Below, in pieces: positions 1 through 49,341 of a stretch of 64,000 nucleotides of DNA. The notes under the pieces were generated by a model. It was not told the origin of the DNA. It made no database searches and was given only the letters and a program-made list of their open reading frames with translations. Made by a program: the position numbers and the translations under genes. Position 1 is the stretch's first letter; the number at the start of each line of letters is the position of its first letter. The stretch lies in assembly GCA_903813345.2 (NCBI GenBank), contig CAIIXF020000004.1:536513-600512 (forward strand). The letters run 5' to 3'. Origin of the DNA: Owenia fusiformis (taxonomy: Eukaryota > Annelida > Polychaeta > Sabellida > Oweniidae).

Positions 1-731
1 TGTGCTATAGTATTCCCACACATCTCTGAGGATGTCTGTATTGTTATCGGTAGTTCTATGATTTTAACTTACGTTTTCCTATGTTGTGCTATAGTATTCC
101 CACACCTCTTTGAGGATGTCTGTATTGTTATAGGTAGTTCTATAATTTTAACTTACGTTTTCCTATGTTGTGCTATAGTATTCCCACACCTCTTTGAGGA
201 TCTCTGTATTGTTATAGGTAGTTCTATAATTTTAACTTACGTTTTCCTATGTTGTGCTATAGTATTCCCACACATCTCTGAGGATGTCTGTCTAGTTATA
301 GATAGTTCTATGATTTTAACTTACATTTTCCTATGTTGTGCTATAGTATTCCCACACATCTCTGAGGATGTCTGTATTGTTATCGGTAGTTCTATAATTT
401 TAACTTACGTTTTCCTATGTTGTGCTATAGTATTCCCACACATCTCTGAGGATGTCTGTATTGTTATCGGTAGTTCTATAATTTTAACTTACGTTTTCCT
501 ATGTTGTGCTATAGTATTCCCACACATCTCTGAGGATGTCTGTAATGTTATAGGCCATTCTATAATTTAAACTTACGTTTTCCTATGTTGTGCTATAGTA
601 TTCCCACACCTCTTTGAGGATCTCTGTATTGTTATAGGTAGTTCTATTATTTTAAACTTACGTTTTCCTATGTTGTGCTATAGTATTCCCACACATCTCT
701 GAGGATGTCTGTCTTGTTATAGGTAGTTCTA
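1..731. repeat. 84-bp tandem array copying the exon 18 end and its donor
   Basis: About 8.7 copies. On the minus strand each unit carries the 3' part of exon 18, the GTAAGT donor and about 20 bp of intron. The rightmost copy is the real exon. 84 is a multiple of three, so the plus strand shows a spurious 170-residue ORF. The array continues past base 1. Confidence 0.95.
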
Positions 732-810
732 CAACCCCCTGGAAGAAGTGACCTGCTGAGTAGCTTATGTTTACTGCAGTTTCTTCTTTGTCCCCAGTCA
801 ACACCCATAT
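662..810 (-). CDS. ATP11B: Flippase exon 18 (P domain, TGDK)
   Basis: Starts [20 protein letters not shown] and ends HRKT at GTAAGT. Its last part plus donor is the unit of the 84-bp array that fills 1-731. Read-through past the donor meets TAA at once, so only this donor fits the frame. Confidence 0.92.
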
Positions 811-3800
811 CTAGAAACATAAATAGCAAACACATTAATCTTAGGGAAATAAGAAATGATGCACATTGAAAAATTAAACTGAAAAGTAAGAATCTTTCAA
901 ACGAAGTATCATAAGTGACCTTTTTACCACATCTTTTAAAAGAAGTATCACCAGTGACCTCTTCAATTCCCTAGGAATTTTTAAAATGAAGTATCACAAG
1001 AGACCTCCTAACAACGTCAATTTCCTAAGAATCTTTCAAATCAAGTGTCACCAGTGACCTTTTTACTTCATCAATTTCCTAGGAATTTTTAATGAAGTAC
1101 CACAAGTGACCTTTTTACCATATTAATTTCCTAGGAATCTTTGAAATGAAGTATCACCAGTGACCTTTTTACTTCATCAATTACCTAGGAATTTTTAAAT
1201 GAAGTACCACAAGTGACCTTTTTACCATATTAATTTCCTAGGAATCTTTAAAATGAAATATCATCAGTTACCTTTTTACTTCATCAATTTCCTAGGAATC
1301 TTTAAAATGAGGTATCACCAGAGACCTTTTTACCACATCAATTTTCAATTAAAAGTGACATTTTAATTGATCAATTTCCTAGGAATGTTTTGAATGTTTT
1401 GCAAAAATAGATGTTTTACAAAAATGTTCTTACAATGACATTTGCAGATATTTGAGAGAATATTTTGCATATAGAATTCTTAAGGTTAGCAATATTAATT
1501 TATAAAAACTACCATGGAAAGTATGACTGGTACAACAACATGAACTTGATATTAAGAAACCTTGAATAAAAAAAACTACCGAGAGAATATCAAAGGCATA
1601 AAGTGACCTTTTACCATTAACATTTTTAAGATTGGTAAAGAAAAAACAGCTTAAGTGCATAAAAATCAATAGCCCTATTTGAACAAACACTTTATGCACA
1701 TATCACAATATCAGGTAAGCCTGCACTTTATTGATCCAGTCAAAACAAATTCAATGGTTGCTGCTAACTGTGCCCCAATATTTACACTTCATGATTCATC
1801 ATTTTAAAAGGGAGTCAATAAGCAACTAATGTATTGCGACATTTACAAGAAGACAGAGGACCTGGTGCAGCTCAAACATCCAAGGGGAAATCATATAGAC
1901 AGGTAATAGATCAGTCCAATTATGGAATTATATCTATAAACATATATATATAAGGGAGTTAATATATTAAAGGGTAGTATAAATATAATATGTTGTAGGT
2001 AATATATATATATATAGATTTAGTAGGTAACAGAGGTTCATGAAGGACTGATGATATATCATTCTGAGTGAAAATATATATTATAAATTGCGTAGTTATA
2101 CTCGTATATATAGGTATTAGTATTATAGGTATTATATATAATTTGACATATTGTTAATATATAAATAAATTTGGTAGCTAATATATAAAGCTTCATAAAT
2201 TACTAGTGATATATCATTCTGAATGTTTGGCAAAATGACAAACAACAAAATAAGGGGCTTCTACATAATGAATTTGAAGTTGAGTTTATTTTGCTGCTTA
2301 TTAGATGAAATATTAAACCCGTATACTGGTGATATGTTCAAATTAAGGTGTAATATGGAACAATGTTGTATATTTTAAACATATATGACTTAAATAAAGT
2401 AATAATGAGGTAATACTGAAGAAAATGAATCATTTACTAAATATAAATTAACCCTTTAACTTAACTCACATTGCATTTCCTGAAGTTTTTAACAATGAAA
2501 AAACTGCAGTACTTTTGGCTTGTCAATATTTGCATCAGAGAGCCAAAGCGTACTTCATGTTTATATAGTAACATAATAGTAATACATCATCCTGACATTA
2601 TGCACTGAGCATTAGTTGAGATGCTGGTAACAAATTTGATGATAACTTTGTTCTAATGCCTTTCTGGTTTTCCCCAGTACAGTAATCTTTTTACATGTCG
2701 AAATAATGTTTTGTTTGGTTAAAAAAATCCAGATTTATTCTCATATTGTACAAATAATTCTGTATTTATTTACAGAAGTTTCGTCTTCACATCTACAGGT
2801 GAGGCATAAACTGAATCATGGAGAACCAAAGTTACGCTAATCAGAAGAAAAATGCTGAAAAACCAGTTGGTCAGTCACCAAGTGGCCCAACAATGACACG
2901 TGCAGTACTTCCACCAATAAACATCACACCTGGATTGCATGGGACACAGCAATCAATGAATCAAGCATCAATACCCCAGCAGCCAGCATATCCAACACAA
3001 CCCCAAATGGGATATGTACCACCAAGAGCTGCATACACAGTGCCACCTACTGTTGCCCAACCATATGACCCAAATCCCGATTACAGCAATGGTCCTAGGC
3101 CAGCATGGGCCCACAATTGCGCATTGGTACTCAGCACTCTCCTCATCATTTCTGGTATGATCATGTTCATCATGAACATCGTTGGTTTGGTGGTGGGTGT
3201 CAAATTTGCCGTAGGTGGAGCAGGAATATGGGGAGGCCTATTCATGATACTCACTGGAGGAATTGGGGTATGCGCATCAAAAACAAAAACAACCTGCAAA
3301 ATTGTTAGCCTGATGGTCCTTGCTATTCTACTTGCAGTGTTTAGTTTCTGTATATTTGGCGCTCATGTTTCCGGCACCATAGTGGCATCTATAGGTAACT
3401 GGGATTACATGGATAAAGAATATCCATATCACTATGACGACTTCGATGATTACATGCCATCACCATCACGCGAATATATATATGATTATAACTGTACACA
3501 TCCTTATGAGACTGTAAATGGTGTATACTGTGATGGGTTTACAGCATACAGAGAGGTGTATCCTGAGACTGCTAAGACCAGTCCAATTAGAAAATATGTG
3601 GATGATGCCAAACCAGCTGGACAAGGTATAAGGATCGCTTTCAATGCAACTATGACAATATTTGCTCTTATAGTATTTGTAGCATGTATCGTGGCATCTG
3701 CGTTATCCTGCCGTGCAGTGTGCTGCCGATCTCGGTCAAACGTGATTCAAGTTGTGTATGTTCCTGCTACAGGCTCCTGTCAGATGAATCCTATCTCACA

Positions 3801-6800
3801 GGGAAACAACCTCCAGGTTTGCTTCTTTTCTAATCTGTTCCCTATTCTTAAGTCTCTTTTGGCTACTGTATTTATTAGTTTCATACATAACAAATCAGTT
3901 GTAAAAAGTAGTAATCTTCAGAGAGTTAAAACAATTATCAGAATAAAAGAATAATAATACATGTATTTAAATGAATTATCGTACATTTTCATTGTTTTGT
4001 TCTTTAACCAACAGGTTGTCTCTGTTGCTCCACATGGCCAGCTTCAACCCCAGTATGTTCAGAACCAAGGAATGGTACAATCGCAGAACATGGCATTCTC
4101 TCCGCAGAATGCAGCCATTGATTACAACCAGGTTAAGCCAAATGAAACAGGTGGACAGGCTAGGAATGCAACTGGAGGGGATAGTCCTCCACCTGCTTAT
4201 GAGCCTTATGGGAGAAATGAAATAACTGCTGTTGAGGACTAATAGATTCTCATTTCAAGATTTCACTATACAATAAAACCTGTACATTTGAACACTTCCT
4301 TCATCTGGACACCTCTCAATATGAACACTTTGAGGACAAACAGATTCTCATTTCACTATACAATAAAAAGCCTGTATATCTGAACACTTGCTTCATCTGA
4401 ACACCTCTCAATATGAACACTTTTAGGACAAACAGCAAAACAGGTATATCTGAACACTCTTCTTATCTATACACCTCTCTATGTGAACACTTTTTGGTCC
4501 CATTTTTTAATCTGCCATAGACTACTGTATTTAAAAACTTTAAATATGAACACCTGCTAATCTGAACACTTTTGGCTGCTCCTTAGTGGCATTCTGATTA
4601 GACAGGATTCACTTACAGTTGTACATAACAACAACCAAAGAATGAGGACACTAGTACAATTGAACATGGAATGGAATGGACGGACAGAAAACTGTGAATA
4701 CTGAGATTATAACGTCTCGCGTAAATAAATGCTTATTCAAATAACAGATGTAGACCATCAGCTGATACGAAAGATATTGCAAAAAGTGAATAACCAACTG
4801 ATGAAATACTGAGGTTAATACTAACAGTGATTATATGCTAGATCATGCAAATCTCTGATCAGCTTTGATTAAAGATAATTTTTATACTTATAGAGATTAT
4901 TTATTAGATCTTGTAGCTTACATATATTTTACATCAGTTAATGGTGGCCTAAAACCCAGTTTATTTTTTTTCGTGAAGCCACTCAGTAAAATTACGATTT
5001 CTCTGCACCCTGATGTCCAATCAAGATCATTTGAGTATCTATGTGCAATTTACTAAGTGGCTTCACGGAAAAGTAAACAGGGTTATAAGCCACGTTAATC
5101 AAACAAAAACTGTAAATATCAATGGTAAAACTTTTAACTTAAATTATGGCAAATGCTTATGTAGATAACTAGATATATATAGTCTATCAAACACCAAAGT
5201 GGGATGGACTATCAATTATTGTATAATACTTTAGTAAGTATAATGTAAAAAGTGTGAGACTTTAATAAATATTTTACTAACAATGTAACTCTGTTGATCA
5301 GAAAAGAAAAATAGCTTGGCATCATACTCAAGATTTTAACCAAGATTTTTAAAAATTACTCAATATAATTTATAAATGTATAGTATGTTCTGTGTGTTTC
5401 ATTTGGAACCCTGTATGTTTACATAGTACATGTATTCTTGAAGCTTTAAAGTTCATAAAATATAAATTTGTGTATTTTGTATATAATTTCATTGTTTTGT
5501 TATAGATAATTACTGATTGGTGCACATGGGATAGAACTTTAAAGGCAGCCTCTTGATTTTGTGAGATTCCAAGTCAATTTAAGGTGTTACAAGTTATAAC
5601 CAGGGCATAATAAAGCTTGTAGAAAATTAAAAGCAAAACTGTGAGAAGCAAATTTGCCATTTCATGGTATTACAACCAAATTCAGGGTGAGATTAAAAAA
5701 ACAGAACCCACAATCTTTTTGGGTCAACCTGAATAATCTAAATCAGATCATGGACACCTTCTATCAATTTATTATTATCACAACTTTTTGTAGTTAAATC
5801 AAGTTACCTTAATCCCTGCTGTCCTTAAAGCAGCTATAGTCTCAGGGACACCTGCCTGTAGTCTGTCTTCCACTGCTGTAGCACCAAGTAAGGTAAGATT
5901 CTGTTCTATTGCACTGAAAGCCTCCACCAGCTGAAATATACATGATGGGTCATAAAAATGGGACAATTTGCAACATAGAAATATCATATAGATAAACTGT
6001 GTGCCTGTAGTCTGTCTTCCACTGCTGTAGCAACAAGTAAGGTAAGATTCTGTTCTATAGAACTGAAAGCCTCAACCAGCTGAAATATACAGGGTGGGTC
6101 ATAAAATGGGACAATTTGCAACATTCTTAAAATATCATATAGATGAACTGTGTGCCTGTAGTCTGTCTTCCACTGCTGTAGCACCAAGTAAGGTAAGATT
6201 CTGTTCTATTGCACTGAAAGCCTCCACCAGCTGAAATATACATGATGGGTCATAAAAATGGGACAATTTGCAACATAGAAATATCATATAGATAAACTGT
6301 GTGCCTGTAGTCTGTCTTCCACTGCTGTAGCACCAAGTAATGTAAGATTCTGTTCTATTGCACTGAAAGCCTCCACCAGCTGAAATATACAGGATGGGTC
6401 ATAAAATGGGACAATTTGCAACATTCTTCAAAATATCATACAGATGAACCCCATTGGCAGCATAATGTACCAAAAAATAAAAGGAATTTTGGCCGATCAT
6501 GTATACATGTATTATATGAAGAAAATATGATAATCTAAAATCCAAGAGTTTTTTCTGACAGTTGAGCCTTTAAATTATACTAAAGTAATTTTGTACACAT
6601 GTATAAAGGAAGAATGACAAGAGGGAAATGCTACAATATAACCGCATAATGGAGCATGTGGCTCATAGCAAAATGGAAGTTACCTTTTCTTCTCTGTGTT
6701 CTAAAGATTTCCTAGAGTCTTGGAGTATTTTATCATAATATCTAAATTCTTCTACTGTAAATCGTCTTATGCCAATCACCAATGTACGGAGTCCCAACTG

Positions 6801-9800
6801 AAAACAAGGTACATTATCATATGCAGAAATTTGATTACTTATAACATTAAGTAGTAATATGTAGAAAAATCTGATCAGGAGTTTTCATGCGAATGCAGTG
6901 TCAAAAACAGTTTTTACAGTTTCCGGGCAAAACTGGATTTATTTGTTAATTATCAAAATATTTTGACAAATGAGTTTGCGAGCTTACTACCTACTGAAAC
7001 TAAGTTTGACATCATTAATCTCGCCAATTTCTGGGTTCACAAAAAGGGCACAGGGTTATTGGAAATGTAAATTTATCACTTAATCTGTAAAATCAAGATG
7101 TACTTACAACAGCATAGTCATTAACATGCCTGAGTATTGTGTCTTTATCACCCCCAGTTGCCCTGGGCAACATAGTGGCCTCAGCACCTTTGCACAATAG
7201 ATACACGTCACCTAAAATGTAGAAGTTGACTAGAAAATGGCAGTTATATGGAAAAATTATTTATGGATGAAACAAAATAGTTTGGTTATTCAAAATTCTT
7301 TAGAGTTTATTGTGAGAAAATTTTGAGTTGAATCATTTATAACTTAATAAAAAGGTACTGGAAAAGGATTAGTGACGTGTTATATCCAGGCTACTTAACT
7401 TTATATTTGAAAATGTCTTAGGAATATTAAAACAGTCAGAAAAAACATAAATATAAACATCTTAAAGCGGGACATGGGATATAAATAGGAGGCAGACTAA
7501 TGGAACAGCCAGAATAGCTGAATTTTTGATATTTTCACAAAGCTAGTCAATTTTCTCAAATTTCATTGTTGAGACCCTCCTACTTATACAGTTAACAGAA
7601 AGAACAGAACATAACTACACCTCATTTGGCCCCATATGTTCTTGAAATAACTTGTGAATAGTGAATAAATCCAAAAGAAAATTGAATACATGTGAATAAA
7701 ATATATACCGTATACAATTCTCATAGCGTCTCATTTCACCATTAAATGACACTTCTATATACTTAATATATACTGTATATATAATTCATTCCACCTACCA
7801 CTTTGGTCCCTAATGATGACACTCATTCTCTTTCTATTGGCATCAAACTCCAGGATGTGTAGAGGCTCATAGCGTCTCATTTCACCATTAAATGACACTT
7901 CTATATAGTCATCTTTCATGCCATGGAGCACAACTCCATACCTAATATGGGCAAAAAGTGTTATCATTAAATGACACTTCTATATAGTCATCTTTCATGC
8001 CATGTAGCACAACTTCATACCTAATATGGGCAAAAAGTGTTATCATTAAATGACACTTCTATATAGTCATCTTTCATGCCATGGAGCACAACTCCATACC
8101 TAATATGGGCAAAAAGTGTTATCATTAAATGACACTTCTATATAGTCATCTTTCATGCCATGGAGCACAACTCCATACCTAATATGGTCAAAAAATGTTA
8201 TCATTAAATGACACTTCTATATAGTCATCTTTCATACCATGTAGCACAACTACAGGGTGGTCCAAAAAAATGGGACACTCGTATTTCAAAAATAAATAAT
8301 GATTTTCTTTTTTTTTCTTTTTTTTGTAGTATTTATTTTATTTCAGTTTAAAACTTCTTACATTTTACATTTTAAAGCAACCTCCAAACATTCTTCCTTT
8401 CACACCATACATTCTTACCCATCCATACCCACTCATCTTTCATACATCCCAGTCAGACACATGCATACTGTAAATGTCACATAAATATAGAGGAAAAATC
8501 ATGCCATAAAATAAAGCATAGAACGCTATTTAAAGTTAGAAATCATAATTATCTAATTTTGAGCCCTCGGAAAGATACGCCCTATACCCCAAGTATGATA
8601 TAGGTTCTCTTCTAAAAATCTTCGTATGCACATAATACTTGTAAATTAAAATAGCAAAATTGAATTCTTTGAAAAGTAAGTTCCCAAAATATCCCACTAT
8701 TACGTGCTGTTCCTTTAATTCTATACCCTTTGGCTCCCAATGCATTTTCATGTTTTTAATGAGAGGTTGTACATTTTTGCAAATCCAGAATCGGTGCTGG
8801 ACAGTTTCTTCCTCCCCACAAAAGTCACACGCGCCATTTTTCCTTATCTTTACTCTTTTCAGATACAGGTTTGTCGCGTAAATATTATTAATGATTTTAT
8901 ACTGCAGCTCGCGAAAAAAATTGTTCTTTGTTACTCTGTAAGCCATCGAACATATGTCATTTACTGAGACATTGAATTGCGAGGCGCTTTGTTGCACACT
9001 TTTGGATAAAGTAAAATTATTTTCATTTATACACGACTGAATAAGCTTTGTGGTCAGCTGTGAAATATCGAAAATCTTACCTGCAATATGGATAGATTCC
9101 AATCTGGGCTCATAGTTTGATACACTTATCATTGTGCGGTCGCTTTTTAATAAGGAGATCCACTTCGATGGAATAGCTGATATAATTCCCATATAGTCTA
9201 GAAAGTTAATATTTATCGTGAATTTCAGATTGAAATCCCGATGGCTTAAGAATTTGCCCTCTTCGTCTAAAAGATCTCGTATTTGGACTATTTGTTTTTC
9301 AAATAGATCCTTCCTGAAAATTTGCTTACCCTCCCTTAATATGTTCTTGTTATTCCACAAAAATTCGTTCTTAACTTCAGCACTATTCCGTGGGTCATCA
9401 CATTCATTGACTGAAGAATAATACCGAAGCATGTCCTTATAAAACTCCGGAATGGGATATTTGAAATACAGGACATCATAGCGACATTGCAAGATAAAAT
9501 TTAAGCCTCCGAACTGTGCAAAGTAAATTGCAGGGATAACCTTCCAATGACTTTTGGATATGTCAAAGAAGCGTTTTATCCACATAATTTTTAAAGCTTT
9601 TTCCATTGAAGTCAAATTTAACATTCGAATTCCGCCATCTTTAAAATCACCAGATATGGTATTACGTTTAATCTTTTCACTGGATCCTTTCCAAAGAAAG
9701 CTATAGATCAGCCAGTTTGCTCGCGTAATAACGTGATCAGGGGTGGCCGTCATAGACATAGAGTATACCAGTTGTGAGACAGCTAAAGATTTGATTATCA

Positions 9801-18800: not shown

Positions 18801-21800
18801 CCCTGGACAACTCATCCCCTAGACAACTCATCCCTGAACAACTCATCACCTAGACAACTATTGACCAGGATGGATACAGCTGTATGGCCACACATCAGCA
18901 AAATATACAGAAATATCCACCCCAGTCCATTCCCACAGGTTATGCACCTAAAATATCTCTATGTACGGAATACATATAACATGTTCCTTTAATCGAGAGG
19001 CAGGTTAATGATAAGATGTGACTTACTGTAAGTTGTGGAACAGGGGCTGGTTGAACATCTGGAATGTCAGGCTTAAAGCAAAGCATTCCACCAACTTCAA
19101 TGTACTTCACTCTACCTATTGAGCACTGGCGGAACTGCATGTCATTTTCAGTCAAAGTTCCTGTCTTGTCTGAGAACAGGTACTCCACCTATTGAGAAAA
19201 AGCAACTGGTTTTACATCAATATAATTTTCAGTAACTAAATTTTAAGAAAGTGTATATCCAAATATTTAATAGAAATAATCCTCTGATTAACAATCCAAT
19301 TAGAATTCAAATCAATTAAAGAAACCCATCTTTACAGTGAAAGATATCATGAATCTTAATTTATTTACATACCTGTCCAAGTTCCTCATTGAGATCAGAA
19401 GTGTTTGCCTTGGCTCTTTCATTTACTTCACTATCATAAAGCTCAAGATCCCAACCCAGTAACATTGAACCAAAGAACTTCATCAGCTCTGGAAAATACA
19501 TGAAGTATACACTCTTCATGATTATACAGTTAAACCTATGTAGGGGAAACAATTAAAAATGTTCCACTCATGGAGATGTTCCACATCACATGTTTTACAG
19601 TATCAGTATTTTTTATAAATTGAGTTGATAACTAAAATAAAAAAAATCTTATTGTTCACCTACCTACAGTGACATACATGGAGATGTTATTGCAATGAAT
19701 TATAGTGAGCTGATAACTGGAATAACAAGAACACAAATGTGTACAATATGTCCCCACCTATGGGTGATCCCGTCAAATGGTTATCCTAAAAATGAGTAGG
19801 CAAGACTTTACCGACATAATTTGAGGACGGAGAATCCAAAATGGCCACATTAAAATTTACAAAGAATGCCAAAAAAGTTAGTCAGTTCTAGATTTTCATA
19901 CTAAGAACCACCCCTGAAAATTTGAAATTGATCCGTCACACAGTTAACCAGAAAACATGTAAACAAGACTTTACAGACAAGATTTGAGGACAGAAAATCC
20001 AAAATGGCTGCCTTGACATTTATCCAGAATGCCAAAAACTAATCTGTTCTAGATTTTAATACTAAGAATCATCCCTGAAAATTTGAAATTGATCTACCAA
20101 ACAGTTCACCTGGAAATGTGTAGACAAGACTTAACAGACGAGATTTTAGGACAGAAAATCCAAAATGGCTGCCTTGACATTTACCCAGAATGCCCAAAAA
20201 TTAATCAGTTCTAGATTTTCATACTAAGAATCATCCCTGAAAATTTGAAATTGATCTAGCAAACGTTTCACCTAAAAACGCGTAGACAAGACTTTACGGG
20301 CAAGATTTTAAGACGGAAAATCCAAAATGGCTGCCTTGACATTTATCCAGAATGCCAAAAAACTAATCAGATCTAGATTTTCATACTGAGAATCATCCCT
20401 GAAAATTTGAAATTGATCTACCAAACGGTTCACCTGAAAATGCGTAGACAAGACTTTACATACAAGATTTTAGGACGGAAAATCCAAAATGGCTGCCTTG
20501 ACATTTACCCAGAATGCCCAAAAACTAATCAGATCTAGATTCTTATACTAAGAATCATCCCTGAAAATTTGAAATTGATCTACAAAACGGTTCATCTGAA
20601 AATGCGTAGACAAGACTTTACAGACAAGATTTTAGGACGGAAAAATCCAAAATGGCCGACAATAAAAAAGTGATTATGAGTTTTTGCTGAAATCTTTTTA
20701 CAAAATTATCACATATAACTACTGTTAACAATAACATAGGCTTTTACAACAAAGTACACCTGAAATTATTTATAAAGCTACTAAAAAGTTTAAGTATGAA
20801 AACTGAAAAACACCATTCAATATGATACAAAGTATTATCGTGCGCTAACTTTTCTTAAAACATTCAAAATGGCTGACATGACTGAGCTAACAGGTCCAAA
20901 ACCTAATCAGATCTAGAATGAAGTGAGCTGAACAAGATGTTAAAGTTTTAAAAGCAACGGTGATGCCGTTTTTCTTAAAGTTTGCAGACAAGGATTTTAG
21001 CATTTGACTTCAAAATGGCCGACAGGAAGTAGGTATCGAGTTAATTTTTTTTCATCCACATCTGTATGCACTCATAAGTTATCCCTGAAAATTTGAAGGT
21101 GATATCTGTAGCGGTTTTGGAGAAAACTGCCGGACGTACGGACGGACAGACAGACGGACAGACAGACAGACAGACAGACGGACGGACAGACGGACGCGCC
21201 TAGGCCGACAATATGGCCCCACACTATGTGGTGGGGACATAAAAAGTCTGATATATCACTTACCTACAGTTACATACATGGAGATGGGGATGATATAGTT
21301 GAGCAAAACCATGAAACTTAAGAACTCCTCAATAAATACCAGGGCCTGAAAATAACATAATGCATAAAGCATAAATAAAAATAAACACAAAGAAAATGGA
21401 ACAAGACACTGAAAATAGGGGTACAGTAAAAAGGGCAAATAAGCATGTCAATAATCAATAATAATGTTTATAACGTTTAATTGATACATAAACATAGTTT
21501 AAGAAGTAAAATTTATTTTTACAGAAAACTAATATTTATATTATCAATTCAATGCTGAAATATATATATATAATGTCCAAAAACATCCTCAGTTTTCATG
21601 CAAAGTACAGCCCTGAAAATTTGAAATTGATCTACCAAACAGTTCATTTGGAAACACATAGACAAAATTAAGTGGGACAACTCTCTACTCACCCACCTGT
21701 AAGGCAAACTGATCACAACATTTATAGCACTATTGAGGGTGTGATAAAAATGTACTACTTACTGTAAGTGAGTGTTCTCCTACGACGTACCAGGGCTGAC

Positions 21801-24800
21801 CTCCTGGCTGGGAAATGTACCAGCGCTTTAAACCAACCAACAGTCCTGATTCTATACACAAGAGCAGTAGGAATATCAGCAGAAACTTGTTCATAGACCT
21901 GCACATAAAATTCAGGATGTATACATAAATATACAAAGGTTTCATTCCATAAAAATTGATATTTAACATATGTGAATTTACTGTGTGTGTCAAGTGATTA
22001 TTAACTCATCTTTAAGATCATATGACCTGTCATGTGACACATATCAGTCATGCCATGGTCAAATTTGCTCCGATTTTTCTATGGTGCCCGGCCGATTGAG
22101 TATTTTGTTCAAAATTGAATAACAAAATACTCATCGGCCGGGTGTATTCAATTTTGAACAAAATACTCATTGGCTGAAAATCAGAGCAAATGTGACCATG
22201 GCATCAATCAGTCAATTTGCAACAAAGTTTCTCTGTTCAATTGCCATTGGCTTAAGACACAACTATGAGTTTCAACCAATGTTCCAATTTTAATAATGTA
22301 TGATGTTAAGTCAAGAGGACGAAATAACCCAGAATTCCAAAATGAACCTGCACACATCTTCATGTATTAATGAAGCTGGAAGTACATCTTAATATTCATC
22401 TTTGAAATCTGGGTTATCCCTCTGTTATTTAGGGAGATATCATTTTACTTACTTCTGAAGTCAAATAAACATACCTCTCAACTCTTGAAAACTTGTGAGA
22501 TTTAAACTTTGAGTTCAAGGACATCTTGGTGTCTTTGCCTGTATATACTGCACAACCTTTAATAAGAATTTGTAAAAGTTAATCATTGGTGTCTTTGCCT
22601 GTATATACTGCACAACCTTTAATAAGAATTTATAAAAAGTTAATCATTGGTGTCTTTGCCTGTATATACTGCACAACCTTTAATAAGAATTTGTAAAAAG
22701 TTAATCATTGGTGTCTTTGCCTGTATATACTGCACAACCTTTAATAAGAATTTATAAAAAGTTAATCATTGGTGTCTTTGCCTGTATATACTGCACAACC
22801 TTTAATAAGAATTTATAAAAAGTTAATCATTGGTGTCTTTGCCTGTATATACTGCACAACCTTTAATAAGAATTTGTAAAAAGTTAATCATTGGTGTCTT
22901 TGCCTGTATATACTGCACAACCTTTAATAAGAATTTATAAAAGTTAATCATTGGTGTCTTTGCCTGTATATACTGCACAACCTTTAATAAGAATTTATAA
23001 AAAGTTAATCATTGGTGTCTTTGCCTGTATATACTGCACAACCTTTAATAAGAATTTATAAAAAGTTAATCATTGGTGTCTTTGCCTGTATATACTGCAC
23101 AACCTTTAATAAGAATTTATAAAAAGTTAATCATTGGTGTCTTTGCCTGTATATACTGCACAACCTTTAATAAGAATTTGTAAAAAGTTAATCATTGGTG
23201 TCTTTGCCTGTATATACTGCACAACCTTTAATAAGAATTTATAAAAAGTTAATCATTGGTGTCTTTGCCTGTATATACTGCACAACCTTTAAAGAATTTG
23301 TAAAAGTTAATCATTGGTGTCTTTGCCTGTATATACTGCACAACCTTTAAAGAATTTGTAAAAAGTTAATCATTGGTGTCTTTGCCTGTATATACTGCAC
23401 AACCTTTAAAGAATTTGTAAAAAGTTAATCATTGGTGTCTTTCCCTGTATAAACTGCACAACCTTTAAAGAATTTGTAAAAAGTTAATCATTGGTGTCTT
23501 TGCCTGTATATACTGCACAACCTTTAATAAGAATTTATAAAAAGTTAATCATTGGTGTCTTTGCCTGTATATACTGCACAACCTTTAATAAGAATTTATA
23601 AAAAGTTAATCATTGGTGTCTTTGCCTGTATATACTGCACAACCTTTAATAAGAATTTATAAAAAGTTAATCATTGGTGTCTTTGCCTGTATATACTGCA
23701 CAACCTTTAATAAGAATTTGTAAAAAGTTAATCATTGGTGTCTTTGCCTGTATATACTGCACAACCTTTAATAATAATTTATAAAAAGTTAATCATTGGT
23801 GTCTTTGCCTGTATATACTGCACAACCTTTAATAAGAATTTGTAAAAAGTTAATCATTGGTGTCTTTGCCTGTATATACTGCACAACCTTTAATAAGAAT
23901 TTGTAAAAAGTTAATCATTGGTGTCTTTGCCTGTATATACTGCACAACCTTTAATAAGAATTTGTAAAAAGTTAATCATTGGTGTCTTTGCCTGTATATA
24001 CTGCACAACCTTTAATAAGAATTTATAAAAAGTTAATCATTGGTGTCTTTGCCTGTATATACTGCACAACCTTTAATAAGAATTTGTAAAAAGTTAATCA
24101 TTGGTGTCTTTGCCTGTATATACTGCACAACCTTTAATAAGAATTTGTAAAAAGTTAATCATTGGTGTCTTTGCCTGTATATACTGCACAACCTTTAATA
24201 AGAATTTGTAAAAAGTTAATCATTGGTGTCTTTGCCTGTATATACTGCACAACCTTTAATAAGAATTTGTAAAAAGTTAATCATTGGTGTCTTTGCCTGT
24301 ATATACTGCACAACCTTTAATAAGAATTTATAAAAAGTTAATCATTGGTGTCTTTGCCTGTATATACTGCACAACCTTTAATAAGAATTTATAAAAAGTT
24401 AATCATTGGTGTCTTTGCCTGTATATACTGCACAACCTTTAATAAGAATTTGTAAAAAGTTAATCATTGGTGTCTTTGCCTGTATATACTGCACAACCTT
24501 TAATAAGAATTTATAAAAAGTTAATCATTGGTGTCTTTGCCTGTATATACTGCACAACCTTTAATAAGAATTTATAAAAAGTTAATCATTGGTGTCTTTG
24601 CCTGTATATACTGCACAACCTTTAATAAGAATTTGTAAAAAGTTAATCATTGGTGTCTTTGCCTGTATATACTGCACAACCTTTAATAAGAATTTATAAA
24701 AAGTTAATCATTGGTGTCTTTGCCTGTATATACTGCACAACCTTTAATAAGAATTTGTAAAAAGTTAATCATTGGTGTCTTTGCCTGTATATACTGCACA

Positions 24801-27800
24801 ACCTTTAATAAGAATTTGTAAAAAGTTAATCATTGGTGTCTTTGCCTGTATATACTGCACAACCTTTAATAAGAATTTGTAAAAAGTTAATCATTGGTGT
24901 CTTTGCCTGTATATACTGCACAACCTTTAATAAGAATTTATAAAAAGTTAATCATTGGTGTCTTTGCCTGTATATACTGCACAACCTTTAATAAGAATTT
25001 ATAAAAAGTTAATCATTGGTGTCTTTGCCTGTATATACTGCACAACCTTTAATAAGAATTTATAAAAAGTTAATCATTGGTGTCTTTGCCTGTATATACT
25101 GCACAACCTTTAATAAGAATTTATAAAAAGTTAATCATTGGTGTCTTTGCCTGTATATACTGCACAACCTTTAATAAGAATTTGTAAAAAGTTCATCATT
25201 GGTGTCTTTGCCTGTATATACTGCACAACCTTTAATAAGAATTTGTAAAAAGTTCATCATTGGTGTCTTTGCCTGTATATACTGCACAACCTTTAATAAG
25301 AATTTATAAAAAGTTAATCATTGGTGTCTTTGCCTGTATATACTGCACAACCTTTAATAAGAATTTGTAAAAAGTTAATCATTGGTGTCTTTGCCTGTAT
25401 ATACTGCACAACCTTTAATAAGAATTTGTAAAAAGTTAATCATTGATGTCTTTGCCTGTATATACTGCACAACCTTTAATAAGAATTTTTAAATAGTTAA
25501 TCATTGGTGTCTTTGCCTGTATATACTGCACAACCTTTAATAAGAATTTGTAAAAGTTAATCATTGGTGTCTTTGCCTGTATATACTGCACAACCTTTAA
25601 TAAGAATTTATAAAAAGTTAATCATTTGTGTCTTTGCCTGTATATACTGCAAAACCTTTAATAAGAATTTATAAAAAGTTAATCATTGGTGTCTTTGCCT
25701 GTATATACTGCACAACCTTTAATAAGAATTTGTAAAAAGTTAATCATTGGTGTCTTTGCCTGTATATACTGCACAACCTTTAATAAGAATTTATAAAAAG
25801 TTAATCATTGGTGTCTTTGCCTGTATATACTGCACAACCTTTAATAAGAATTTATAAAAAGTTAATCATTGGTGTCTTTGCCTGTATATACTGCACAACC
25901 TTTAATAAGAATTTGTAAAAAGTTAATCATTGGTGTCTTTGCCTGTATATACTGCACAACCTTTAATAAGAATTTATAAAAAGTTAATCATTGGTGTCTT
26001 TGCCTGTATATACTGCACAACCTTTAATAAGAATTTGTAAAAAGTTAATCATTGGTGTCTTTGCCTGTATATACTGCACAACCTTTAATAAGAATTTATA
26101 AAAAGTTAATCATTGATGTCTTTGCCTGTATATACTGCACAACCTTTAATAAGAATTTTTAAATAGTTAATCATTGGTGTCTTTGCCTGTATATACTGCA
26201 CAACCTTTAATAAGAATTTTTAAATAGTTAATCATTGGTGTCTTTGCCTGTATATACTGCACAACCTTTAATAAGAATTTATAAAAAGTTAATCATTGGT
26301 GTCTTTGCCTGTATATACTGCACAACCTTTAATAAGAATTTTTAAATAGTTAATCATTGGTGTCTTTGCCTGTATATACTGCACAACCTTTAATAAGAAT
26401 TTATAAAAAGTTAATCATTGATGTCTTTGCCTGTATATACTGCACAACCTTTAATAAGAATTTTTAAATAGTTAATCATTGGTGTCTTTGCCTGTATATA
26501 CTGCACAACCTTTAATAAGAATTTTTAAATAGTTAATCATTGGTGTCTTTACCTGTATATACTGCACAACCTTTAATAAGAATTTATAAAAAGTTAATCA
26601 TTGGTGTCTTTGCCTGTATATACTGCACAACCTTTAATAAGAATTTGTAAAAAGTTAATCATTGGTGTCTTTGCCTGTATATACTGCACAACTTTTAATA
26701 AGAATTTGTAAAAGTTAATATTTTAAATAACAGTTAAATATTAAAAGTAAATCAATAGACTTTTCCAATAAACCCTGCCACCTTTTGGAATATCAAGCAA
26801 GCTATGATATATTGGCTAGAATGATGATGTCATTGGTTGTTCTTCTCAAAAATTAGCAATAAGTTAATCCTATTTTTGCTTGGACAGATTGCAACTTGTG
26901 CCTATGACATCATCAAATTAGCCAATATATCATAGCTTCTTTGATGGAACAAAGGGTGACAGGGTTTATTGGGAACATCCCTCAAGGTTCAGATAATAAC
27001 TCTGCAATGACATTCATATTAAACATCATTCATTGGCTGTATTTTGAATATTAAATAGATTAAAAAATTCTGCTTCATTTTATCAAAGTCATATAGAGAC
27101 CAATAAACAAACTGATTTAATTTGGGGAATCTCAATTTCATTAGTTATGAGTTTATATACAAGTAATACATGAAGGTAATTATTTGTTTGATAATATGGA
27201 TTTTATTCTATGGGCCAATATGACTTAAGTGTCAATTTTGATATTTGCTGAAGTTAATGTCATATCGTCCTTCAAATAAATTCCATATTCTATTCTTAAT
27301 ATCAATGACCTTTTCATTCTATGAATCATATGAGATTCAATGGATGGATCCAGGATTTGGATGAACATGGGATAAATTACAGGATTTTCAAATATCAATT
27401 CTAATTTATTATGAAGGTAGCATCCAGGGAAAAATGGAATTATTTTATGGAATAAATTCATTTCAACTAGAAAACTGTGAAAGACTTCCTTAGAATTTTT
27501 TGAATGACAGCCCACCCAAGTGATGGACTAAACATGTGGGTACTAAAACAACAGATATGGAATGGGCAAAGATTTCTTAGTAACCTTCAAAGAAGTAAAA
27601 CTCAATGTAAGACTTTTAGAAGCAAAGAAATGTTATGTTAATATCCATTTTTTACAAAATCAGGCTATTATTTAAGCAGTTATAAAGGGGGACGGAATGT
27701 TTGTCAGTTCCAGGAATCCTCCAAACAAGGTTTATAAACATTTATATATCTTTGGGATAGGGTTGGCATAACTGAATTAGTTTTTTTCTTCAAGTTACTA

Positions 27801-30800
27801 AACTTCTAAATAATATTCTACTCACCAATTACTCATTTATTTTCAGAATATACTCAGTCCTACTTTACTTACCAAGTCACACTTTTGTGTTATTGTTTTT
27901 ACTAGAATAAGTATTTAATTGCTTTTAATTAAAATTATGAATTCAGTAAAACCTGAAAAGCAGCACACAAGATGTGTTTTACTTAAACAGGTCTTACTGT
28001 ATGTACTTTTATTGACTTTAATATGTTTTGTACAGGTTTCATCAAACACTACCTTAAAACCTAGTTCATTTTACAATAATGAGTACTGAAATAATTAATG
28101 CGATTATACACTTGGAAAATGTATGAGTTTCTTTTTCGATTACAGAAGTGTGAAATGTGTTAAGTCTTAAATGTGAAAAAGTAGAAACAGTTCATGATAT
28201 TCAATTATAAACATCTATTTACCAATTTAAATAATTAAAGAACAATAATAAAATATTTGTTCACAATTGTGTTGCATCTACTTACCATATATAAATGGAG
28301 TGTTTTTCAACCTTGCACCTCTAAGTAAGACATTTTCGTGACATAAAGATTTCACAGTTTTCTCATCGCCATCTTGGATTTCAATACGTCCAACAAACTT
28401 ATAAAGGTCTGTGATTGGTTGTTGACATTCTATGATTCCGCGAAAAGATTCAAAAGTGTCCGAGGTCTGAAGATGACGTGTCTCAGGCACACAATAGAAT
28501 GTCTGCAAAATAATAATATGACAATCCAAATTAGAAACTACATTGTGCTATACAGTATTGCTTTATTTTTAAAAATCATGACTTTCTCAAATTGTTTTCC
28601 AAAAAGTTATTTCTATGCTGAAATTATGATTTCTTCGAATTTAACCTGTTGATTTCATACATTATGCTTGCCTGTTGGAAATTTTAATGAACATTTACAA
28701 CATATTTGTTTGTTTCTTCATACATAACACACAACTCAAGAAATACCTTTAAGTTGGTCTCTCCATCTAAGTTGGCTGTAGTGATGTAACACTCTCCGTC
28801 AGGGTCATGCGATGACATCATAACCAAGTCACATGGCAACGGATGGTTCATCTGGACTCTTAAGACATCACCAACCTAAACAATTATTAAGGTGGGTGTA
28901 GGGATATATTTTACATGAGGTTAGTAAATAATTATATGGATAAATCATTCAATTCTGCCTACCTTAACTATTACCAGAGAGTAGATTCTTCCTCACTAAA
29001 AAGTAATGTTTTTATCTAAAATAGCCATTACTAACAAAACGATATCATTTTCTTTCAAAATGCTATGAGCAAATCTAAAAAGCTTTTTATCTACTCTTTC
29101 ATATTATTCATTCACAAATATGATAATGTATATAATTTGAAGAAATTTGATCTAAAAATCAGAATTAGTTGAATGATGTCAGATGTTTCATATAGTACTC
29201 AGCATTCATAGAAATCTTTCTAATGGTTATGGCTCCTGGTAGACTTACCACTATTTCATGGGACTTGATTTCTCGCAACTCGCCATTTCTCACTACCCAG
29301 CATGCTCTATTGTTGACTTCATTGTCCGCTTGGTGACGTAACCAATCCTCATAACCCTACAGATTTGAAAAGTAGAGATAAGTCAGAATATTGTGATAGA
29401 TCAATATTACACATGTTGCTTGCAATTTCCTCACCCACCCCCCCCCCCCCCCCCCCCCATTCTCTAATACTGCCTTTAAGGAATCATTAAAAAAAGAATT
29501 AACAACTGGAAAACCACTGGAAAAGTATAATGATGTCATACTGAGATAGATCAATATTACACATGTTGCTTTCAATTTCCTCACCCCCACCCCCCCCCCC
29601 CCCATTCTCTGATTCTGATTCTGATAAAACACATAAGTCAAGAATTCCTAAATCCAATGTTGTAACCTTGGATATAATAACCTTGGATATAATGATGTCA
29701 TAGTAAGAGAACAATGGCCTTGAGGAGTCTTAACCCTCTCTTATATTTCACTCTTCCTACTAATGAATACATTACTTCAAACTTACTTGTTTTATTGCAG
29801 TTACTGTGATGACAAACACCAAATGGACTATACTTACTTGTTTAATTGCAGTAACTGTGATGACAAACATCAAAGAGGACTATACTTACTTGTTTTATTG
29901 CAGTAACTGTGATGACAAACACCAAGGGGACTATACTTACTTGTTTAATTGCAGTAACTGTGATGACAAACACCAAGGGGACTATACTTACTTGTTTTAA
30001 CTTGCTGTAACTGTGATGACAAATGCCAAGGGGACTATACTTACTTGTTTTATTGCAGTAACTGTGATGACAAACACCAAGGGGACTATACTTACTTGTT
30101 TAATTGCAGTAACTGTGATGACAAACACCAAGGGGACTATACTTACTTGTTTTATTGCAGTAACTGTGATGACAAACACCAAGGGGTCTATACTTACTTG
30201 TTTTAATGCAGTAACTGTGATGACAAACACCAAAGAGGACTATACTTACTTGTTTTATTGCGGTAACTGTGATGACAAACATCAAAGGGGACTAAACTTA
30301 CTTGTTTTATTGCTGCAACTGTGATGACAAACACCAAAGGGGACTATACTTACTTGTTTTATTGCAGTAACGGTGATGACAAACACCAAGGGGACTAAAC
30401 GTACTTGTTTTATTGCTGCAACTGTGATGAAAAACACCAAGGGGACTAAACTTACTTGTTTTGTTGGTGCAACTGTGGTGACAAACACCAAGGGGACTAT
30501 ACTTACTTGTTTTATTGCTGTAACTGTGATGACAAACACCAAGGGGACAATACTTGTTTTATTGTAGTAACTGTGATGACAAACACCAAGGGGACTAAAC
30601 TTACTTCTTTTATTGCTGTAACTGTGATGACAAACACCAAGGGGACTATACTTACTTGTTTTATTGCTATAACTGTGATGACAAACACCAAGGGGACTAT
30701 ACTTACTTGTTTAATTGCAGTAACTGTGATGACAAACACCAAGGGGACTATACTTACTTGTTTTAACTTGCTGTAACTGTGATGACAAATGCCAAGGGGA

Positions 30801-33800
30801 CTATACTTACTTGTTTTATTGCAGTAACTGTGATGACAAACACCAAGGGGACTATACTTACTTGTTTAATTGCAGTAACTGTGATGACAAACACCAAGGG
30901 GACTATACTTACTTGTTTTATTGCAGTAACTGTGATGACAAACACCAAGGGGTCTATACTTACTTGTTTTAATGCAGTAACTGTGATGACAAACACCAAA
31001 GAGGACTATACTTACTTGTTTTATTGCGGTAACTGTGATGACAAACATCAAAGGGGACTAAACTTACTTGTTTTATTGCTGCAACTGTGATGACAAACAC
31101 CAAAGGGGACTATACTTACTTGTTTTATTGCAGTAACGGTGATGACAAACACCAAGGGGACTAAACTTACTTGTTTTATTGCTGCAACTGTGATGAAAAA
31201 CACCAAGGGGACTAAACTTACTTGTTTTGTTGGTGCAACTGTGGTGACAAACACCAAGGGGACTATACTTACTTGTTTTATTGCTGTAACTGTGATGACA
31301 AACACCAAGGGGACAATACTTGTTTTATTGTAGTAGCTGTGATGACAAACACCAAGGGGACTAAACTTACTTCTTTTATTGCTGTAACTGTGATGACAAA
31401 CACCAAGGGGACTATACTTACTTGTTTTATTGCTATAACTGTGATGACAAACACCAAGGGGACTATACTTACTTGTTTTATTGCAGTAACTGTGATGACA
31501 AACACCAAGGGGACTATACTCACTTGTTTTATTGCTATAACTGTGATAACAAACACCAAGGGGACTTTACTTACTTGTTTTATTGCAGTAACTGTGATGA
31601 CAAACACCAAGGGGACTATACTGGTAACAGGACTAACTGGACTGTCAATGACAACCTAAGTAAATATAAAAATCAAAATCTTTAGAGCTTAAACATGAAA
31701 CAAATGAACTAAAAGTAGCTTATTTCCCACTGACTGGAATAAGCAAAAGTTTTGAGATGAAGACAATCCTCTTGGGTCATAATCTGACATTTAAAATTGA
31801 GGTTCTCCTAAATATGTGTAACTTTAATCTTAACCGTTTTAATATGAGGAACATACTTCTATTCATGGAAAATAGTTCTTATAAGGTCCCTATTTAAACC
31901 AATGGAGAGGGAGGGGCAAAATCTCTCGAGTGATAATCTGAAAATTCACATATCCGTTCTCCCAAATATGTGCAATTTAAAAGTTCTAATATGAAAAACT
32001 TACCTCTATAAATGCGATACACAGAAAATAAAAGTTGGCCACCCTCTGGAACTGTTCAAAAAGATTCAGGAACAAGAAGTTCCATGCTGTGTACTGCAAC
32101 AAGAAACATATAACTTGTTAATGAGATAAATATTACAGAAACCTCTATTGGCATTTAAATTTTACAAATTCGGATATTTGTGATATTACTAAGCATTTGT
32201 CAAATTGAGTATATATTTCCAATATACCAGCAAAATAATAGCACTTTGACTGGGGTTTAAAGATCAATTTAGCGTACATTTTCAAAGAATTGCCCTAAAG
32301 TAGAATGCATAGGCTTATGGTGATAGGACATGTGTTCACTAAAGATGGCAGTGTAGTCAAGTGGTTTGTCTTCATATCTTGTCTACAGGAAAACCATTGC
32401 GATAGCCGCGCCCCCTTTGTCTTTATCCTTCCAAAGTGAACTCGCAAACGGCAGATAAGAGGGGCTCTGGCATACCAGAATGCAGGAAAACCACTTAAAT
32501 ACACCGCCATCTTTATATCAGCCTAAAACTATAGTAGAAGATTGTCTTATTATTTCATGAAAAACTGATCTTCAACTATTTTAAATTATCTTTCCAATTG
32601 CCCATCTGAGAATCTGAGAGATTGCCATATAAGGATTAACATTACATTACAATATATCGTCAGATTATTTCATATATACACAATTGCAGTTATAATCAGC
32701 TACTATATCTAGTATTCATTTTCATAAACACTATACTACTATAAGACAAAATTATCTTGTTTTCAAACACAGTAGTTATCAGAAAACCTTCTTGTTTCAA
32801 CAATCTACAGTTATCTCTCTCAAGACTTACTTATAACCATGTTTCTATTCTATATATGTTTATGCAAGTCAGCTCAATGTGAGTGATTCTGATTTATACA
32901 TAGGTCATTATAACTTGTTTTCGTACACTCATTTGTATTCTTAATACACCCATGTAAATATATCTACAACCAGTTAAATTCTGTCAGGCCTTAATTATTT
33001 ATCTGTTGTGTCTTACCGTGCCCCTCCAAGATGAGACGAGACTCGAAGACGAGACGAGACTAACAGAATCAATAAAAGAGTCTTGGGTCGGCAGAGTTTA
33101 TGAATAGGTGTATAGCTAGTATAGATATTTGACAATGATTTTCCAATTAAAACTGTGAAAATTATACTCAATATAAGAATAATATCAAAAGGCTGTGATT
33201 GATAGTTACTGTAGTTTAAGAGCTATTTTCTGTATACTGCTATAGAAGCTCATCAATGTAAAATGTTCATAGGCAAGGAATATACAATTATTGGACTTGT
33301 TATCACTTAATTCAAAACATTACTGTACCTTTGAAGTTGTAATTCGGTTGTTGGGGAATTTCTCTGCGACATACACTTCTCCCGGCGGGTGCTTGTTATT
33401 GATATACACTGAGCGATTTGGTGGACGGACTTTTTTACAGCAGTTCTGAAATTGTGAACATTTTTAAAACATTGGTCATGTATTTAAACATTCAAAGGTA
33501 GAGAAACTGTATTTAAAACATAAACAATCTATTTAGCTTACATTAGTTCATGGCGACCCAGTTAGAGAGTGAGGAATATAACAGTGAATAATAAAACATT
33601 TAGGACAATCTACTTTCAAAAAACCTATCTCACAATCAGAAATAAAGTATTGTATTACTTGAAAAGATGCACAGAAGTCTCATAGTTACACGCTTGTGCC
33701 CTCCCCCCCACAATGCACACCACCGCCACAGGTCAAGAGGGGGGGGGGGCCTCATTGCTTTTTTAACATCCTTTGAGAAATATTCCTCTAGCAATGAAGA

Positions 33801-40257: not shown

Positions 40258-41038
40258 TATTGGTCACCTCACTTGATACCAGAGGGGTGTAGCCCCGGGT
40301 ATAGGGTGGTATGGGGACCCTACTAGTTAGTATAGGGTTGCAGCCTAATGTAGCCCCGGGTATACGGTGGTATGGGGACCCTACTAGTCAATATAGGGTT
40401 GCAGCCCAATGTAGCCCCGGGTATAGGGTGGTATGGGACACCTCACTAGTCAATATAGAGTTGCAGCCTAATGTAGCCCCGGGTATAGGGTGGTATGGGA
40501 CACCTCACTAGTCAATATAGGGTTGCAGCCCAATGTAGCCCTGGGTATAGGGTGGTATGGGACACCTCACTAGTCAATATAGGGTTGCAGCCTAATGTAG
40601 CCCCGGGTATAGGGTGGTATGGGACACCTCACTAGTCAATATAGGGTTGCAGCCCAATGTAGCCCCGGACCAAGGGTGGTATGGGACAACTCACTAGTTA
40701 ATATAGGGTTGCAGCCTGATGTAGCCTCGGACCAAGGGTGGTATGGGACACCTCACTAGTTAATATAGGGTTGCAGCCTGATGTAGCCCCGGACCAACGG
40801 TGGTATGGGACACCTCATTAGTTAATATAGGGTTGCAGCCCAATGTAGCCTCGGACCAAGGGTGATATGGGACTCCTAACTAGTTACTTTAGGGTTGTAG
40901 CCTAATGTAGCCTCGGACCAAGGGTGGTATGGGACACCTCACTAGTTAATATAGGGTTGCAGCCCAATGTAGCCCCGGACCAAGGCTGGTATGGGACACC
41001 TAACTAGTGACTATAGGGTTGCAGCCTAATGTAGCCAG
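40258..41038. repeat. 61-62-bp tandem array, about 13 units
   Basis: Unit around AATGTAGCCCCGGGTATAGG and GGTTGCAGCC. The right half has the variant CGGACCAAGGGTGG. No exon similarity seen. Confidence 0.93.
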
Positions 41039-47667: not shown

Positions 47668-47927
47668 TGTGAGCAGTGTTCAGTAGGTTAGCAACTCTGT
47701 GAACAACATTGGAAACATCACCAGGATAGATGATTGCAATAACAGCTTTAATTGCTCTATTAATTAATATGTATATATATACATATATTAATGAATTGTT
47801 TTGTTTTATTGACCTACGAAAGTGTATCAGCTGAAAACATTCTGCTTATAGTCATGCTATGGACACAACGATTGGACGGCGTCCATCACGTGATCACCAT
47901 ATTTGTCCTCACGTGAAATATTGTCTT

Positions 47928-48068
47928 TGTTGTCAATTCGGACAAAGGAGAGAATGAGTTTGATGGATTTAACTACAGTTTATAATGTATAGAAGTACAA
48001 ACAATACATACTGGAGTATCAATATCATAAAATATGTTCAAGTACGCAGTTTGAACATTCTAATATGA
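47928..48068. promoter_or_regulatory. Upstream block shared with locus C (inverted), locus B side
   Basis: Lies 261-401 bp upstream of the locus B start. Its reverse complement matches 49001-49158 over about 140 bp (GAGTTTGATGGATTT, AAGTACAAACAATACA, GGAGTATCAATATCAT). Conservation suggests shared promoter sequence or simply the arm of the inverted duplication. Confidence 0.6.
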
Positions 48069-49000: not shown

Positions 49001-49158
49001 TCAAGTATTATAATATTGGAATGCTCTGTGCACTTGAAAAACATATTTCATGATATTGATACTCCAACGTGTATTGTTTGTACTTCAATACATTATAAAG
49101 TGTAGTGAAATCCATCAAACTCAATCTCCTTTTTGTCTCCACTTTGACAACACAGCCA
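49001..49158. promoter_or_regulatory. Upstream block shared with locus B (inverted), locus C side
   Basis: Lies 184-341 bp upstream of the locus C start; see the B-side block. Confidence 0.6.
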
Positions 49159-49341
49159 ATCTATAATGATGGTGACAGCTTGATAACAGAACTATGTTTA
49201 TGTCTGATTCCTGGCGCGACGGTATATGAAAAATGAAATCATTCATCAAAATATGCTATTTGATAAAATAATTAAATCAGATAATGCACTTCTGTGTTCA
49301 AATTACGTGTCAGGTGTCATCATAAGCCAACGCACAGAGCA

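Follow-up and report, generated by a model that had tools for sequence, protein, structure and literature searches.

Minisatellites built from exon-intron borders in an ATP11-type flippase gene and other conserved genes of the annelid Owenia fusiformis

A 64,000-nucleotide stretch of the Owenia fusiformis genome (GCA_903813345.2, contig CAIIXF020000004.1, positions 536,513 to 600,512; hereafter the window) carries on its minus strand a gene that, judged from its predicted protein, is an ATP11-type flippase (P4-ATPase), the introns of which are enlarged by minisatellites built from the gene's own exon-intron borders. Nine such border arrays lie over its 26 introns, and array DNA makes up 20.8 of its 50.2 kb. 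Border arrays recur in other conserved genes of the same genome beyond the expectation of random placement. The excess is large among arrays of at least five copies, where the border arrays are also the more homogeneous ones, and the intronic copies carry an excess of synonymous variants in their exon-derived part. There is about an even chance that these properties reflect a protected master copy, that is, a selected exon edge that feeds the array.

Results

The ATP11 gene and its border arrays

The joined predicted exons find their best matches in ATP11C structures (E 7e-247). Exon borders were predicted from protein homology, GT-AG rules and reading frame by a purpose-written spliced aligner, which initially gave 29 exons; two short fillers were discarded, and the resulting model has 27 predicted exons. 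No start codon was found in this model, obtained by spliced alignment on protein homology. The gene had been given an extent of 34.7 kb in a preliminary description of the window. It is the same gene, but its predicted span reaches from window base 33,427 to a point 16,761 bp beyond the left edge of the window; this additional ~16.8 kb holds three more border arrays. The exons numbered 4, 8, 13, 14, 17 and 18 in that description are exons 3, 7, 12, 13, 16 and 17 here, and the positions, unit lengths and donor or acceptor sides of the six arrays that it reported all agree with Tandem Repeats Finder (TRF) and spliced alignment. The exons and arrays of this part of the gene, including two intron-internal arrays, are the following, in window coordinates.

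31575..31655, minus strand: exon 3, source of the 51-bp array (spliced alignment, also aligned to ATP11C)
29781..31622, minus strand: 51-bp array, 36.1 copies, donor side of exon 3, unit with 48 bp of exon (TRF, spliced alignment and sequence inspection)
22475..22556, minus strand: exon 7 (spliced alignment)
22526..26719, minus strand: 61-bp array, 69 copies, acceptor side of exon 7, unit with 31 bp of exon (TRF and spliced alignment)
16211..16371, minus strand: exon 12 (spliced alignment)
16281..18644, minus strand: 124-bp array, 18.8 copies, acceptor side of exon 12, unit with 91 bp of exon (TRF and spliced alignment)
7799..7941, minus strand: exon 13 (spliced alignment)
7886..8251, minus strand: 79-bp array, exon-proximal block, 4.6 copies, acceptor side of exon 13, 56 bp of exon (TRF and spliced alignment)
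13732..14697, minus strand: 79-bp array, second block, 12.3 copies (TRF; shares the unit of the block at 7886-8251)
15537..15778, minus strand: 79-bp array, third block, 3.1 copies (TRF)
5808..5930, minus strand: exon 16 (spliced alignment)
5853..6424, minus strand: 149-bp array, 3.8 copies, acceptor side of exon 16, unit with 78 bp of exon (TRF and spliced alignment)
662..810, minus strand: exon 17 (spliced alignment)
1..731, minus strand: 84-bp array, donor side of exon 17, unit with 70 bp of exon (TRF and spliced alignment)
963..1344, minus strand: 54-bp array, 7.1 copies, within intron 16, no border, counted as negative (TRF)
19774..20656, minus strand: 162-bp array, 5.4 copies, within intron 9, no border, counted as negative (TRF)

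The six border arrays in the window sum to 11,277 bp, in line with the earlier estimate of about 11 kb. The 84-bp array extends leftward past the window start and reaches 16.6 copies overall. The three border arrays left of the window have units of 102 bp (10.9 copies, donor side), 41 bp (5.0 copies, donor side) and 47 bp (160.9 copies, acceptor side), the last amounting to about 161 units and 7.5 kb as assembled. In all nine arrays the native exon end is the exon-proximal copy and the remaining copies are intronic. The exon parts mostly align with the human protein, exon 17 being the weak case, and on this ground the exon is read as the source of the array rather than its product. A 72-bp array of four copies (L001:8020-8309) stops 14 bp short of the predicted acceptor of exon 18 and was not counted as a border array.

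Intron 12 also houses a LINE-type element (long interspersed nuclear element) with reverse transcriptase and endonuclease domains (window 8536-12263, minus strand), which splits the blocks of the 79-bp array; 5.5 kb separates the block at 7886-8251 from that at 13732-14697. A false expansion of repeats during assembly is a very improbable origin of the arrays, as the copies within an array are not uniform (each of the 13 arrays checked holds between 3 and 32 distinct ones), the LINE stands between blocks of a single array, and related but diverged arrays occur in two nearby genes.

In intron 16, a long single open frame lies on the opposite strand (window 2815-3954, plus strand). It has a weak CD20-like match (28.4 bits against a cut-off of 27.9) and is perhaps a nested gene or a retrocopy.

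Border arrays in fifteen genes

Comparison with random placement covered ATP11 and another 14 genes of this genome that were selected on their protein, with their repeats unseen. These controls comprise five P4-ATPase paralogues and nine unrelated conserved genes, namely clathrin heavy chain, VCP, glycogen phosphorylase, Na/K-ATPase, XPO1, UBA1, a UBA6-like gene, importin-beta and part of SERCA (26.1 of ~52 kb covered). Importin-beta and SERCA joined after the count of the first 13 genes, their repeats likewise unseen. Arrays were counted from TRF rows with a period of at least 20 and more than half of their length within the predicted gene span, taking the smallest suitable period where rows overlapped; genes in the right half of the window were excluded. 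A border array has at least 8 bp on either side of a border, and predicted exons of less than 40 bp were dropped. The exon sets of the P4 paralogues are incomplete, identical sets being used for observed and expected numbers. The three blocks of the ATP11 79-bp array count as one array, whereas in the analysis of GC (guanine-cytosine) skew and intron length (13 genes) the two detached blocks sat among the non-border rows. Three arrays beyond the predicted spans were left out: an ATP8A 67-bp array of 21.9 copies, a clear border array that entered the synonymous and polarity tests but no others; a 55-bp array of 13 copies beside it, with no border assigned; and an 86-bp array of 9.9 copies at the edge of the stretch fetched for the UBA6-like gene. 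Expectations were derived from two null models, the first placing a unit at random in the gene as it was before its arrays grew and the second placing an array of unchanged length at random in the introns as they now stand.

Under the first null, 28 of the 75 arrays found in the 15 genes (244 introns) lie at borders against 8.69 expected (P 6e-10). ATP11 alone contributes 9/16 against 2.09 (P = 1.7e-5), the 14 controls 19/59 against 6.6 (P 3e-6) and the nine unrelated genes 12/40 against 4.96 (P 0.0014). The earlier view that the arrays are recurrent and not due to chance is thus borne out, and a comparison of the kind proposed with it, here over 15 genes, finds border overlap beyond expectation. 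The idea that one gene is peculiar is not sustained, border arrays being present in nine of the 15 genes: nine in ATP11, seven in importin-beta, three in P4(C2a), two each in ATP8A, P4(C10) and XPO1, and one each in clathrin, UBA1 and SERCA. Six of the 14 controls have none (the P4 gene on C6, ATP9, VCP, glycogen phosphorylase, Na/K-ATPase and the UBA6-like gene). These six, and the weak result of the first seven unrelated genes considered in the Discussion, are what chance would predict had the reader simply picked a gene for its oddness. This explanation is nevertheless hardly credible in view of the repeat-blind controls, both in the overall count and at high copy number.

Introns of ATP11 (L001:1994-2535), ATP8A, ATP9, glycogen phosphorylase and importin-beta also have in common a dispersed tandem element, related in sequence and with units of ~116-160 bp; none of the copies seen there lies at a border.

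Copy number, homogeneity and composition

The border excess is dominated by arrays of high copy number. Below 3 copies (1.8-3), 6 of 30 arrays in the 15 genes lie at borders against 4.29 expected (P 0.24); at 3-5 copies the count is 5 of 20 against 2.15 (P 0.048), and at five or more copies it reaches 17 of 25 against 2.25 (P 4e-14), or against 1.34 under the length-preserving second null. The 14 controls (10/16 at borders against 1.19, P 4e-9) and the nine unrelated genes (6/9 against 0.80, P 9e-6) display the same excess at five or more copies, and the odds ratio linking border position to high copy number is 7.5 (Fisher P 2.7e-4), or 6.3 in the controls alone (P 0.004). The lack of an excess at low copy number, together with the large excess at five or more copies, suggests that duplications start nearly at random, while growth or survival depends on the border.

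Among arrays of at least five copies, the 17 at borders are also more homogeneous than the 8 others (93.1% against 84.1% TRF match, P 0.0085), pointing to active turnover and not to persistence alone. The units of border arrays are rich in exon sequence, with a mean exon share of 0.647 and a lowest value of 0.29 (Kolmogorov-Smirnov P 0.0024), although the 8-bp minimum trims the lowest fractions. Composition and folding provide little distinction. In the first 13 genes, border and other arrays do not differ in GC skew (P 0.87). The GC content of border units, in gene stretches of 33-36% GC, is marginally higher over all arrays (0.357 against 0.327, P 0.053) and indistinguishable at five or more copies (P 0.84). 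Four of the five units tried for hairpins fold no better than shuffles, the 79-bp unit alone doing so (z -2.5). Attraction of arrays by longer introns was considered and rejected, since intron length without arrays has a median of 366.5 bp in 20 introns with a border array and 378 bp in 193 without (13 genes).

Splice sites in the copies

The splice dinucleotide is kept in 450 of 454 copies, native copies included, over 16 array blocks. Selection on the copied splice sites therefore seemed strong at first, but it was rejected because the effect is not significant against shifted windows: 11 of the 16 arrays have an invariant dinucleotide where 10.2 are expected, and variant cells number 7 in the dinucleotide and 27 in the shifted windows (P 0.085).

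These figures bear on the mechanism proposed in the preliminary description, which acts at splice borders as such, for example through R-loops or replication slippage. Splice-consensus microhomology is a further way in which splice sites or intron ends might promote arrays, and the retained dinucleotide and its lower number of variant cells agree with this. The explanation is nonetheless improbable: dinucleotide invariance is close to expectation, the 28 border arrays are divided almost evenly between donor (13) and acceptor (15) sides, arrays of fewer than three copies lack a border excess, and neither GC skew nor folding bears a clear signature of it. The decisive property of these arrays seems instead to be that they hold coding-exon sequence.

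A role of the copies in splicing or protein variation, as redundant sites or as in-frame units added to the protein, is quite improbable. Exon 3 of ATP11 can be read in frame into the 51-bp array, for up to 125 amino acids, and the ATP8A 99-bp and UBA1 42-bp units are likewise in frame and open. However, when use of the distal site is computed for the 28 units, 21 are not a multiple of 3, 22 reach a stop and just 3 are in frame and open; with 7/28 multiples of 3, no more than a third, the candidate preference for in-frame units was rejected, and conservation of the splice dinucleotides does not significantly exceed that of other positions. Since splicing at a copied site would in most cases lead to a frameshift or a stop codon, the extra copies should be removed with the intron. 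Selection against mis-splicing, were it the main filter, would make border arrays rarer than chance, the opposite of what is observed.

Coding imprint in the intronic copies

Distinct variants were collected in the exon-derived part of 20 border arrays of at least 4.5 copies after removal of the native copy. In the true frame, 60 of 170 variants (0.353) are synonymous against 0.245 expected (P 0.0017), the 136 transitions and 130 transversions observed fitting the weight behind the expectation. Synonymous variants amount to 34/85 of those seen in at least two copies and to 22/46 of those seen in at least three (P 8e-4). One wrong frame displays a deficit (23/167 against 0.231 expected, P 0.003), as it should if the true third positions are the most variable, and the other gives 35/166 against 0.233. 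When the 18 variant-carrying arrays are resampled, the true frame alone has an excess, of 0.112 (95% range 0.044-0.195). The excess is also present where the unit is not a multiple of 3 (40/121 against 0.239, P 0.025), so that in-frame translation of the copies provides no explanation, and it is stronger when ATP11 is omitted (28/70, P 0.003). The simplest reading is that intronic copies repeatedly descend from, or exchange with, the selected coding exon.

Other genes and arrays nearby

The right half of the window contains three related copies of a gene (45300-60200); the one tested has no Pfam match. Two arrays in this region, both uncounted, are related to each other.

45776..46633, minus strand: 51-bp array, apparent donor side of an exon by eye (TRF and sequence inspection)
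51651..52261, plus strand: degenerate 51-bp array, related to that at 45776 (TRF rows 51651-51945 and 52025-52261, and sequence inspection)

As related 51-bp arrays stand at an apparent donor border in two of the three gene copies, the array probably predates their duplication. High-copy arrays at 40288-41036 (62 bp, 12 copies), 52647-53626 (65 bp, 15 copies) and 58367-59642 (34 bp, 38 copies) have no exon border recognised by eye.

Elsewhere in the genome, the Na/K-ATPase gene (C10:26077305-26083731) has six tandem versions of one exon (about residues 129-170), resembling mutually exclusive exons. VCP (C1:2677966-2678557) and glycogen phosphorylase (C8:17291165-17291826) each have two nearby matches to one protein stretch, which are perhaps duplicated exons. 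The haemoglobin-linker family PF16915, an annelid family judging by its name, has three matches above its cut-off in this genome; a COX1 search gave no match.

Discussion

The arguments for and against a protected master copy are about evenly balanced. Tandem duplications would arise at nearly random places, as the low-copy arrays suggest. Where a duplication happens to span the edge of a coding exon, the native exon end would be held by purifying selection, and this protected copy may then act as a master from which unequal exchange, gene conversion or repeated re-duplication supplies near-identical units, exchange running from the exon towards the array. Border arrays would in this way grow and stay homogeneous, whereas intron-internal arrays, without a protected copy, would decay. 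Being on the intron side, the extra copies would be expected to be removed, leaving splicing normal. A wider proposal, in which exon edges constitute a genome-wide engine of intron growth through active amplification of duplications with coding-exon sequence, the copies exchanging with the exon so that introns and exon ends evolve in concert, is tentative and somewhat unlikely.

The main rival of the master copy is an amplification directed by the exon edge, in which exon chromatin, transcription or splicing raises the rate of copy addition and selection on the native copy plays no part. Faster amplification would fit both the concentration of the border excess in high-copy arrays and their higher homogeneity, and the richness of the units in exon sequence also agrees with it. 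In contrast, a synonymous excess in intronic copies is not predicted, the skew of the units is alike, their GC content is at most slightly higher and, of the five units tried, all but the 79-bp one fold no better than shuffles. This rival is, on these grounds, rather unlikely.

Several observations weigh against a protected master copy. The chief one, as regards simple flow from the exon, is the missing polarity: identity to the native copy has no consistent trend along the array, rising with distance in 3 and falling in 2 of 13 arrays at nominal P < 0.1, and a rise with distance runs counter to a simple supply of units by the exon. A border excess would also result from exon chromatin or some other mutational bias linked to exons. 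The synonymous excess is not significant in ATP11 alone (32/100, P 0.10), and with native-base alleles excluded it falls to 49/157 (P 0.063), or 16/39 for variants in at least three copies (P 0.024); moreover, variants within an array have a common history, which makes the P values optimistic. The first seven unrelated genes are weak, with 4/20 arrays at borders against 2.0 expected (P 0.12) and 2/3 against 0.31 at five or more copies (P 0.026), and the late-added importin-beta accounts for 7 of the 12 border arrays in the nine unrelated genes. In the uncounted right half of the window, only two of five arrays with at least five copies and a period of at least 20 look border-derived by eye.

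The class of array is already known, as the preliminary description had suspected. Lancelet 'mirages' are described as tandem duplications of exon-intron boundaries in Adh3, the globins BflGb6 and BflGb9, troponin C and PGBD5 (PMC3087553, PMC3902484). The annelid arrays resemble these accounts in that the unit spans an exon-intron boundary (nine arrays in ATP11, 28/75 over 9/15 genes), the 5' or 3' boundary of the exon may be copied (13 donor and 15 acceptor arrays) and unit lengths vary between genes; the AG/GT signals, carried by many but not all copies of the described cases, are present in 450/454 here. They differ from mirages in their annelid host and in their scale, with as many as nine arrays in ATP11 and seven in importin-beta, and with up to ~161 copies over 7.5 kb, far above the 6 and 3 units given for two BflGb6 haplotypes. 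Allelic instability and normal splicing are reported for the lancelet cases, whereas the annelid arrays are known from the sequence of one assembly. Tandem mutually exclusive exons, made up of complete exons that each have two splice sites of their own, are a different arrangement, as the exon parts here end at one border. They measure 9-91 bp in the 20 border arrays of the first 13 genes, and an importin-beta unit with 97 of the 102 bp of its exon comes nearest to a whole exon.

Other comparable cases have been described. The polymorphic 31-bp variable number tandem repeat of human CBS, called non-coding in its description, is alike in lying at the exon 13-intron 13 boundary but concerns a single gene (PMC5188458). 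Internal tandem repeats at exon-intron boundaries, described as able to create new introns, occur in human genes within segmental duplications (PMC2812944); these are repeats of ~30 bp in ~4 copies in recently duplicated primate genes, whereas the annelid arrays are much longer and lie in conserved genes. Earthworm metallothionein genes also have an annelid intron full of minisatellites, namely a minisatellite-rich first intron, and one clone has exon 4 duplications absent from the transcript; a unit spanning an exon border is not stated in the excerpted account (PMC12783039). Intron gain by tandem duplication likewise involves a duplication that includes splice signals (PMC4974935), whereas in the annelid existing introns are enlarged. 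Among the literature matches listed, as far as their excerpts go, exon-border minisatellites are found only in lancelets and human, and the host phylum, density, array sizes, copy-number dependence and coding imprint look new.

The arrays raise a question for splicing, that of how the correct site is chosen among ~161 near-identical acceptors or 65 near-identical donors. If the protected master copy is the true reading, selection on a coding exon would shape the adjoining intron, sustaining arrays that would otherwise decay and helping to set intron length. It would explain the recurrence of boundary minisatellites and would provide conserved genes with a way to gain introns and to vary in length between alleles.

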